Positions 47,852 to 50,546 of a stretch of 64,000 nucleotides of DNA are shown here, piece by piece (positions within the stretch are counted from its first letter, which is position 1; every line of letters begins with the position of its first letter). The notes under the pieces are model-generated. The model was given only the letters and a program-made list of their open reading frames with translations, ran no database searches and was not told where the DNA came from. The DNA comes from Corynebacterium capitovis DSM 44611 (GTDB taxonomy: Bacteria > Actinomycetota > Actinomycetes > Mycobacteriales > Mycobacteriaceae). Where the stretch lies: contig NZ_CP047117.1 in NCBI RefSeq assembly GCF_030440535.1, positions 1,488,001-1,552,000 of the forward strand, in the 5' to 3' direction. The translations under genes were made by a program, and so were the position numbers.

Positions 47852-48448
47852 TTACTGGACGCTGTGCTTGTGCAGCTCGTCGATGAGATGCCTAACCAAC
47901 GGGGCGCTGATGGAAAGCCCATCTCGAATGGCCATGCGTGACGACGCTAGGTTGACGATTACGGTTGAACCCGAGACTCCGCAGATCCCCCGGGACGTAC
48001 ACGCGTCGACCGCGCCGCAGGCTTGGCCCGAAGAACGAATCGCTTGCCCGACACCGGGGACCATCTTGTCGATGACGGCACGCGTCGCCTCCGGCGCTTT
48101 GTCCCGCGGGCCGACCCCCGTAGCTCCCACCGTCAACACGAAGTCGACTCCCCCAACAACACCCGTCTCAATGGCCTTGCGGATATCCGCCTTCTTTGAG
48201 CGAACGCGTACGACAGCATCGACGATGTAGCCGGCCTCGTCGAGAAGTTCACAGACGAGCCGGTCCGTGTCATCCCCGGGGGCCTCGAAATCCCGGTCCG
48301 AAATCAACACGACTAAGGCGCATGGCCGCAGCGGCTGCTGGCCCGCCAGCTCAGCGGCGCGGAGCGATTCTTCATCGGGCTCGGTCAGCTCGCTCAGTTC
48401 GAGCGGATCAACAGACCCAGCTATCGTGTCCGCAACCGTATCCGACAT
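47852..48448 (-). CDS. mogA: Molybdopterin-binding domain protein (MogA/MoaB family)
   Basis: A 198-aa protein. The first 40 residues are an acidic extension; the MPT-binding core follows with VVLISDRDF, LTVGATGVGPRDKAPEA (family TTGGTG..PRD..PE) and CGVSGSTVIVNL. It may adenylate molybdopterin, although TVGATG departs from the consensus. ATG 48448 is used because AAAGGAG is 7 nt away; ATG 48454 is too close. It follows htrA after 50 bases. In mycobacteria the same position holds moaB2 after pepD. Confidence 0.85.
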   Translation of the reverse strand: MSDTVADTIAGSVDPLELSELTEPDEESLRAAELAGQQPLRPCALVVLISDRDFEAPGDDTDRLVCELLDEAGYIVDAVVRVRSKKADIRKAIETGVVGGVDFVLTVGATGVGPRDKAPEATRAVIDKMVPGVGQAIRSSGQACGAVDACTSRGICGVSGSTVIVNLASSRMAIRDGLSISAPLVRHLIDELHKHSVQ

Positions 48449-48498
48449 GAGCATGCTCCTTTAGCGTGACGTACGTCCCCGTTAGTTCCGTTAAGAAC

Positions 48499-49764
48499 TT
48501 ACTCGGAACTGAGCGTCACATCTACCGATTCGGTGTTGTCACTACCCTGCCTGCGCACCTGCAGCGTCACCGTCTCTCCGAAGTCGCGGGACCGCGTAGC
48601 GGCGACCAGCGCGTCTGCGGAATCAATCACCCTGTCGTTGAGCCGCGTGACCACGTCACCGGCCTTCAGCCCTGCAGCCTCAGCGGGGCTACCCGATTCC
48701 ACCGAGGCGATGAGGGCTCCGTCGGTAGTCGACCGGCTATTCACCTGCACACCCAGCATCGGCTGGGTCGCCGTCCCAGTCTCGATCAGCTGCTGGGCCA
48801 CCCGCTTCGCGAAGTTCGATGGAATCGCGAAACCCAGGCCGATGGAGCCGCTGCTCGAGCTCGACCCCGTCGACCCCGAAGAAAGCGAAGCGATAACAGA
48901 GTTCATACCGATCAGGTTGCCGTTCATGTCAACGAGCGGGCCACCCGAGTTACCCGGGTTGATCGCCGCGTCGGTTTGGATCCCGTCCATGAGCGAGCTC
49001 TCCGTCCCACCCTGGTAGGCACGCACGGGGCGGTTCAGCGCGGAAACGATGCCGCTTGTCACAGTCGCGGAAAGCCCCAGGGGAGAACCAACCGCGACGA
49101 CGTCTTGGCCCACCTTCAGACCGCTCGAGTCCCCAAAGTTAATCACCGGGAGGTTCGTTGAGTTCTGAATTTTCACGACGCCGACGTCGGTATTGACATC
49201 CGAGGCCACGTACTGGGCGGTACGCCGAGTGCCGTCGTTAAGCGTCGCCACGATTTGCGCTCCGCCATTGGCCGCGTCCGCAATGACGTGGTGGTTGGTC
49301 AAGACGTACCCGTCTGAGGAGATGATCGACCCGGATCCTTCCGCGACCCCGGAGCGGGTCTCCACTTCGAGGGAAACGACAGCGGGCAGGACCGCGCTGG
49401 CTACAGCCTCGACGGACCCCTCCGGCGCGTCGTCAGTACTGGACACACTCGGATTATCTAGCGCGTTGTAGGCACTGGCCTGGTCTCGTCCAACGGTGCC
49501 GGCGACGTACCCGGCGCCACCGCCTGCCAAAAGCGACGTGGCCAGGGCAACCGCGGCCACCGCTGCACCGCCGGAGCGGCGCCGCTTCTGAGCGGGGGCT
49601 TGCTGCACTGTGCCAGTTTCGTAGCCAGTTTCGTTGCCCGCCACGGAGCCAGCCCCGTACCCGGTCTGGTAGCCAGCCCCGTAGGTCGGCCCAGAGCCAT
49701 TCCCGGATTGAGGAACATTCGGAGTAGTCATGGGCATATCATCCACGCTTTCACTGTGCTTCAT
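48499..49764 (-). CDS. htrA: HtrA/DegP-type serine protease with PDZ domain
   Basis: A 421-aa envelope protease. The first 60 residues are Gly/Tyr/Thr-rich and low complexity; a TM anchor follows (AAVAAVALATSLLAGGGAGYVAG, in outline). The trypsin-like domain has His in VLTNHHVIAD, Asp in DVNTDVGVV and Ser in NPGNSGGPL. A serine-rich insertion precedes GFAIPSNFAKRV, and one PDZ domain ends the protein. It degrades or refolds misfolded exported proteins. In relatives it is controlled by MprAB; here the regulator precedes it by 56 bases without a kinase. ATG 49764 lacks a ribosome binding site; inner ATGs are possible. Confidence 0.93.
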   Translation of the reverse strand: MKHSESVDDMPMTTPNVPQSGNGSGPTYGAGYQTGYGAGSVAGNETGYETGTVQQAPAQKRRRSGGAAVAAVALATSLLAGGGAGYVAGTVGRDQASAYNALDNPSVSSTDDAPEGSVEAVASAVLPAVVSLEVETRSGVAEGSGSIISSDGYVLTNHHVIADAANGGAQIVATLNDGTRRTAQYVASDVNTDVGVVKIQNSTNLPVINFGDSSGLKVGQDVVAVGSPLGLSATVTSGIVSALNRPVRAYQGGTESSLMDGIQTDAAINPGNSGGPLVDMNGNLIGMNSVIASLSSGSTGSSSSSGSIGLGFAIPSNFAKRVAQQLIETGTATQPMLGVQVNSRSTTDGALIASVESGSPAEAAGLKAGDVVTRLNDRVIDSADALVAATRSRDFGETVTLQVRRQGSDNTESVDVTLSSE

Positions 49765-49820
49765 CTGGCGGAGCCGGCGCTCTCAGCGTAACAGTCTCTG
49801 GATGTTTCCTGTGCCCGGCT

Positions 49821-50534
49821 CTACTCAGCTTTCTCTTCGTCGTGACGCAGAACATACCCCACGCCGCGCACCGTGTGAATGAGCCGAGCCTCGCCAGCCT
49901 TTTCCAGCTTACGACGCAAATACCCGATGTAGACCTCGAGCACATTGCCTGACGACGGCGCGGTGTTGCCCCATACCTCCCGCAGGATATCCGTACGCGC
50001 CATCACCCGGCGCGGGTTCCGGAGGAACACCTCAAGCAGCTCGAATTCGGTCCGAGTCAGCTCAATTGGCCGGCCTCCGCGTCGCACCTCGCGAGTGTCC
50101 GGGTTTAACTCCAAATCCGCCAGTACGCACTGTCCCCCTTGCCTCGTGGGTGCTTCGTGGCCCCACTTGCTCACGTGGGCGCGGCGCAGCAACGAGCGCA
50201 TTCTTGCCAACAGCTCTTCGAGTGCATAGGGCTGCGACATGACATCATCGGCACCCGCGTCAAGCGCCATCACACGCGCCACCGAGTCGTCTTCGGGGCA
50301 CAGCATTAGGAGAGGACCTTGATACCCGGTGGAACGCAACGAGCGGGAGACCGTCAACCCGTCGATTTCTTTAAGCGAAGCATCAATAATTGCCAGCTCG
50401 GGGTGTTGGCCCCCGATCGCTTCGACGGCGCTAGCGCCGTCTTCCACGCCTGTCACCTCGTAGCCATGAAAACTAAGTGAGCGACGGAGGGCTTCCCGCT
50501 CATCTTTGTCGCTGCCAGCCACAACTACTCTCAT
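49821..50534 (-). CDS. Orphan MprA/CgtR2-like response regulator with degenerate receiver
   Basis: A 237-aa OmpR-type regulator. The receiver (1-120) aligns with MprA (LRRSLSF.GY, ALEELLARMRSLLRR), but most catalytic residues are changed: the acidic pair VVDD reads VAGS, the conserved Thr of the LTA motif reads Cys in MLCPED, and the Lys of KPF reads Gln in SQPY. The phospho-acceptor Asp remains in AIIDASLKEIDG. The C-terminal winged helix is intact (ELTRTEFELLEVF, VHTVRGVGYVLR-like end). The partner kinase normally encoded next is missing: htrA follows after 56 bases. It probably works without phosphorylation. Confidence 0.9.
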   Translation of the reverse strand: MRVVVAGSDKDEREALRRSLSFHGYEVTGVEDGASAVEAIGGQHPELAIIDASLKEIDGLTVSRSLRSTGYQGPLLMLCPEDDSVARVMALDAGADDVMSQPYALEELLARMRSLLRRAHVSKWGHEAPTRQGGQCVLADLELNPDTREVRRGGRPIELTRTEFELLEVFLRNPRRVMARTDILREVWGNTAPSSGNVLEVYIGYLRRKLEKAGEARLIHTVRGVGYVLRHDEEKAE

Positions 50535-50540
50535 ATCCTG

Positions 50541-50546
50541 ATTATA
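50541..50546 (-). promoter_or_regulatory. -10 box TATAAT, probable leaderless start of the response regulator
   Basis: A consensus TATAAT on the minus strand lies 6 nt before ATG 50534. A TTGACG is present further upstream but only 10 bases from the box, too close for a normal -35. Confidence 0.5.

Follow-up and report, generated by a model that had tools for sequence, protein, structure and literature searches.

MprA of Corynebacterium glutamicum (CgtR2, cg0996) binds htrA and sigE only if it is phosphorylated or carries the substitution D51E, while at the mprA and cg0793 promoters it also binds in unphosphorylated form; its action is predominantly that of a repressor (PMC12113857). In the OmpR-type regulator system CosR/CosS, the kinase gene and the phosphorylation site are both absent in some Campylobacter species and kept in others (PMC3938529), and how receivers lose phosphorylation and yet stay useful has been described as largely unknown (PMC12632262). 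The window analysed here, a stretch of 64,000 nucleotides from Corynebacterium capitovis DSM 44611, contains a regulator of the MprA type from which the kinase has disappeared. We consider it probable, though well short of certain, that this MprA orthologue, having lost its kinase in the C. capitovis lineage, turned into an orphan, phosphorylation-independent pseudo-receiver regulator, most likely a constitutive repressor.

By sequence and neighbourhood, the window regulator is an MprA (CgtR2) orthologue by descent: its best orthologues are about 60% identical and share its gene neighbourhood, and the gene lies after rpmE2-rpmF and before htrA-mogA (Table 1). The open reading frame runs uninterrupted from an ATG start and encodes the OmpR/PhoB architecture, with Pfam matches to Response_reg (PF00072, 62 bits) and Trans_reg_C (PF00486, 92 bits). 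The order regulator, kinase, htrA that the earlier note had attributed to relatives is indeed present in the kinase-bearing relatives inspected. Upstream of rpmE2 lies an L31-Corynebacteriaceae ribosomal protein leader (Rfam RF03129; 51115-51165, minus strand), and the mogA-like gene may be an orthologue of MoaB2, which in M. smegmatis is reported in PMC11656743 to bind sigma-A.

Table 1. Features of the mprA-htrA-mogA locus, in coordinates of the window.
Feature	Position	Strand	Basis or remark
Orphan MprA/CgtR2-type OmpR-family regulator	49821..50534	-	Intact 237-aa ORF, REC + Trans_reg_C
Receiver domain (residues 1-118), predicted pseudo-receiver	50181..50534	-	18/63 near-invariant positions changed
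Codons 7-8, Asp-Asp (Mg2+ ligands) to Gly-Ser	50511..50516	-	[D/E]D in 152/152 kinase-bearing orthologues
Codon 51, phospho-acceptor Asp kept	50382..50384	-	Sequence, orthologue alignment
Codon 79, conserved Thr to Cys	50298..50300	-	Thr in 152/152 kinase-bearing orthologues
Codons 98-101, Y98V (switch Tyr) and K101Q (catalytic Lys)	50232..50243	-	Orthologue comparison
Winged-helix DNA-binding domain (residues 138-231)	49842..50123	-	Pfam; recognition helix and wing nearly unchanged
Alpha2-alpha3 transactivation loop (residues 185-192), altered	49959..49982	-	E185R, Y190N, D191T, F192A
TATAAT -10-like box, 6 nt before ATG, leaderless start, ancestral	50541..50546	-	Sequence, relatives
56-bp gap between regulator and htrA; mprB site in relatives; no kinase remnant	49765..49820	-	ORFs, tblastn
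Tandem-repeat element before htrA (ACAGGAAACATCCAGAGACTGTTACG), conserved; candidate operator	49787..49812	-	Score 29.0
htrA/pepD-type serine protease	48499..49764	-	ORF, Pfam
mogA/moaB2-type protein (MoCF_biosynth)	47852..48454	-	ORF, Pfam

The kinase is gone from the locus, as the earlier note had stated, with exactly 56 bp left before htrA (whose ORF starts at 49764), and the adjacent MprB that marks an MprAB two-component system is missing. No MprB orthologue was found anywhere in the window genome with the canonical MprB of G017 (P0001) as query, and a loose tblastn with seven MprBs detected no kinase remnant in the gap. That mprB might be missing from the assembly only had been raised as an objection, and it holds to the extent that sister species keep the kinase, with mprB present at the same spot in the closest mprAB-bearing relatives; however, the genome is a single contig of 1.98 Mb with 99.98% completeness, neither side of the 56-bp junction shows a truncated kinase end, the receiver active site was lost in step with the kinase, and the same kinase-less arrangement recurs at 12 further inspected loci, all of which makes an artefact exceedingly improbable. 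Three HisKA kinases exist in the window genome, each adjoining a different OmpR-type regulator; the remaining histidine kinases are of the HisKA_3 or PspC-HATPase types, the remaining regulators examined are LuxR-type, and the window regulator is the sole OmpR-type orphan. As is common, though not required, among pseudo-receiver regulators, it has no partner kinase gene, and the genome holds no spare HisKA kinase that could be the phosphorylating kinase elsewhere envisaged as a further objection.

The receiver has changed along with the loss of its partner. Alignment to 152 kinase-bearing orthologues bears out that the acidic pair (now part of VAGS), the Thr (now Cys) and the Lys (now Gln) are lost and that Asp51 is kept; the changes D7G, D8S, T79C and K101Q remove four of the five active-site residues (D, D, D, T, K) expected of an MprAB system, whereas the set [D/E]D-D-T-K is intact in all 152 orthologues checked. 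Where canonical receivers read VVDDE...ILDVMMP...LTARD...DYLPKPF, the window regulator reads VAGSD...IIDASLK...LCPED...DVMSQPY. With four of five active-site residues gone, the receiver would be a pseudo-receiver as Bourret et al. define it (PMC12632262). Among the near-invariant positions, 11 of 12 in the active site and switch are changed (hypergeometric P = 5 × 10-7) and none of eight on the alpha4-beta5-alpha5 dimer face, although we chose both position sets ourselves and the P value is a guide only. The dimer-interface positions were assigned through E. coli PhoB numbering. A receiver fold is supported by the Pfam Response_reg match; the single-sequence AlphaFold model of the protein has a mean pLDDT of 42.6, too low to be of use. 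The retention of Asp51 and the presence of other kinases in the genome speak for continued phosphorylation of this residue, with a non-cognate kinase or acetyl phosphate as the donor, but since the receiver has neither Thr nor Lys nor the Asp pair for Mg2+ binding, and with each HisKA kinase provided with an adjacent regulator of its own and the others of the HisKA_3 or PspC-HATPase types, we regard this as very improbable.

The DNA-binding domain is less well preserved than the earlier note had it ("fully intact"): 27-32% of its residues differ from those of the nearest relatives, which are themselves only 2-8% apart, with the recognition helix and the wing nearly unchanged. In the OmpR family, the alpha2-alpha3 loop contacts the sigma subunit of RNA polymerase. 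Two residues of this loop that are changed in the window regulator, F192 and E185, are found in 152/152 and 149/152 kinase-bearing orthologues, respectively.

To place these changes in context, we surveyed 242 genomes of the genus, finding the regulator in 195 and the kinase in 182; comparison of the two lists gives about 181 genomes with both genes, 46 with neither, 14 with the regulator only and one (G169) with the kinase only. The regulator-only genomes fall into three separate lineages, namely the window genome, G042, and a 12-member clade whose genomes are mostly large; 13 of the 14 loci were inspected, and in the remaining one (G203, a fragmented assembly) the absence of the kinase is unconfirmed. 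Thr79 is missing in 13/13 kinase-less orthologues vs 0/152 kinase-bearing ones, with Ser or Ala in the 12-genome clade, Ser in G042 and Cys in the window, and the regulators of G119 and G216 additionally carry D8E; of all of them, the window regulator has gone furthest. The regulator tree shows three changes of kinase state and likewise three at Thr79, and these three events (two to three independent pairs) are too few for a formal association or sign test to reach significance. The proposal that kinase loss and receiver decay belong together is nevertheless strengthened by the genus, in which three kinase losses were each accompanied by a changed active site. The window regulator and the 12-genome clade have also changed at the same receiver positions (7/8 of the majority positions of the clade; hypergeometric P = 4 × 10-4, uncorrected for phylogeny), and the changes M54L, L99M and F103Y are identical in both.

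Most regulators of the 12-genome clade (loci L040 and L042-L051) and of G042 (L041) have changed neighbouring receiver positions as well, and their DNA-binding domain is conserved. One of them, G216 (L050), is a kinase-less MprA that combines natural D51E with D8E and T79S; this D51E is the very substitution with which MprA of C. glutamicum no longer needs phosphate to bind DNA of htrA and sigE. With dN/dS values of 0.03-0.10 for the receiver and 0-0.04 for the DNA-binding domain, the kinase-less regulators of the clade are maintained. Corynebacterium variabile, which possibly belongs to this clade, has four regulators without a kinase gene, including CVAR_1009, according to PMC3219685, in the consulted passages of which we found no analysis of their receiver residues, and apparently lacks the CgtSR2 pair according to a table of PMC3353115. 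Genomes that lost both genes (L053-L086) include independent losses beside the window lineage; nearly all keep htrA, and those inspected have rpmE2/rpmF followed by htrA, sometimes with a longer stretch in between.

Comparison with sister species, suggested earlier as a means of dating the loss, places it on the window's own branch. In a tree of 13 proteins (3413 columns), the window genome is sister to (G109, (G147, (G017, G218))), with five genomes that lost both genes adjoining that group, and since G147, G017 and G218 keep mprAB intact, the loss falls on the branch of the window itself; on this phylogeny, G109 and the five-genome group lost their genes in separate events. The terminal branch of the window gene measures 3.59 in the regulator tree vs a median of 0.059, and that of the window genome 0.31 in the multi-gene tree. 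The second-longest branch of the MprA tree belongs to G207 (L099), which has a strongly diverged MprB (32% identity) and an intact active site. Both domains of the window gene evolved fast, the DNA-binding domain included, with the receiver differing at 45-47% of residues from the three nearest relatives, which differ among themselves at 3-12%.

The accelerated DNA-binding domain and the changed sigma-contact loop make gradual decay of the gene toward loss a serious alternative: mprA may have become purposeless after the deletion of mprB and now be a decaying relic with little or no function. Its branch is the longest by far, both domains are hit, and both genes are absent from 46 of the 242 genomes, six of them within the window's own clade of ten. 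However, the 237-codon reading frame, the start codon and the -10 box are intact despite about 44% amino acid change, whereas in a neutral simulation with substitutions only, the frame stayed free of stops in 2.5% of runs at 40% amino acid divergence, and would do so in fewer with indels. Near-invariant and other sites still differ sharply in constraint, with changes at 11% vs 47% of positions in the DNA-binding domain (P = 3 × 10-4) and at 29% vs 62% in the receiver (P = 0.001), and the recognition helix, the wing and the dimer face have been selectively retained. This remaining constraint, a contrast that partly predates the loss of the kinase, lends support to function rather than proof of it, and we consider a relic unlikely, with perhaps a fifth of our belief resting on it.

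The nearest candidate target of the regulator lies immediately before htrA, where near relatives carry a tandem element with an 11-bp period, of the consensus-like form (A/T)CAGNAAACGTTCAGNAAACGTTACG; the window element (ACAGGAAACATCCAGAGACTGTTACG), scored with the window sequence left out of the training set, reaches 29.0, when 99% of shuffled sequences score below 7.3. A half-site of this element overlaps the published MprA site of C. glutamicum htrA, TTTTCAGCAA (PMC12113857). Control of htrA by the window regulator is thus plausible on sequence grounds, but the earlier claim that it governs the htrA-mogA unit is not supported as stated, as the upstream element persists in genomes without mprA and mprB. 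Indeed, it is equally strong there (scores 31-37, for example in G140, G118, G094 and G146), and since this holds for several genomes lacking mprAB, the element would have another reader or form part of the core promoter. The published motif TKTTAAGAAM gave no match upstream of the window mprA or htrA (best 3.6 and 1.3 of 16.7), although this motif is loose, scores low in near relatives too and is at noise level in most loci. A pattern search of the whole genome for the htrA element returned four matches at three mismatches and one control match, from which no regulon can be defined.

The same observations raise a further alternative, in which the protein is a functional phosphorylation-independent regulator that has been re-purposed elsewhere, the htrA element being read by PhoR, RegX3 or MtrA. 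The strength of the tandem element in genomes without mprAB favours this, as does the presence of three other OmpR-type regulators with kinases in the window genome; against it, the window regulator still adjoins htrA, the C. glutamicum htrA site overlaps the half-site of the element, and the recognition helix is almost unchanged. We rate such a re-purposing as rather unlikely, although a chance of nearly one in three may be conceded to it.

Returning to the constitutive regulator that we favour, the window genome lacks MprB and any spare HisKA kinase, the receiver lacks the Asp pair, the Thr and the Lys, and the protein retains its dimer face, recognition helix and wing. Phosphorylation-independent action, already suggested by the earlier note, seems the best reading of a protein in which the dimer face and the recognition helix have outlasted the residues for Mg2+ binding and catalysis. 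Such a regulator would not be usefully phosphorylatable, would dimerise free of phosphate via the alpha4-beta5-alpha5 face, and would bind tandem half-sites constitutively. Given the changes in the sigma-contact loop and the mainly repressive action of MprA in C. glutamicum, it would most likely act as a constitutive repressor or occluder. Several points weigh against this model: the whole protein has accelerated and its transactivation loop is changed; C. glutamicum MprA needed phosphorylation or D51E at htrA, and the window regulator has neither; the htrA element persists in genomes without mprA and is therefore not diagnostic of MprA; the published motif has no match upstream of the window mprA or htrA; and 46 genomes dropped both genes.

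Activity may then be set by the amount of the regulator or by a partner protein. In this regard, the leaderless TATAAT start described earlier is real, but a box of the TATAAT/CATAAT/CACAAT type stands at the same place in most of the relatives shown, with and without the kinase, and being ancestral it is silent on any switch to control by abundance. The sequence TTGACG lies about 19 bp before the -10 box in G017 and about 10 bp before it in the window, and one may speculate that the upstream promoter has been altered and autoregulation lost in the latter.

Across the genus, we tentatively propose, at somewhat less than even odds, a graded path that has been followed repeatedly in Corynebacterium. 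The kinase would be deleted first and Thr79 would go next (G042); switch and neighbouring residues would then be lost, or the phosphomimetic D51E acquired (the 12-genome clade, with G216), until almost none of the catalytic set remained (window), each stage being a functional constitutive regulator and no relic. Versions of one regulator that are intact, converted in part or fully converted stand at one locus in one genus and would form a natural series in which to follow how a regulator of envelope stress under phosphorylation control becomes phosphorylation-free, and the three kinase losses, together with the 46 genomes without either gene, make the order of steps and their outcome (new regulator or decay) directly testable. 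We found no previously described orphan MprA in the literature searched; the kind, a pseudo-receiver regulator, is known, but the papers searched contained no case of MprA being converted repeatedly and by degrees alongside intact sisters.

With C. glutamicum MprA and mycobacterial MprAB, the window regulator shares orthologous sequence, the neighbourhood rpmE2-rpmF-mprA-[mprB]-htrA-mogA, and a recognition helix and wing that are nearly the same; it departs from C. glutamicum MprA in the absence of MprB, in an active site that is dead except for Asp51, and in the altered transactivation loop. The closest evolutionary parallel is Campylobacter CosR/CosS. CosR, however, is essential and has lost Asp51 itself (N51), whereas the window regulator keeps Asp51 and loses the rest of the active site, and the two differ in regulon and genus. 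The states of ChxR, HP1043, GlnR and NblR are older and family-wide. These pseudo-receiver or atypical OmpR-type regulators are likewise orphans with a non-canonical active site that have kept the receiver and the winged helix (definition in PMC12632262). Unlike them, the window regulator has closest relatives that hold intact orthologues, with intermediate stages in the same genus.
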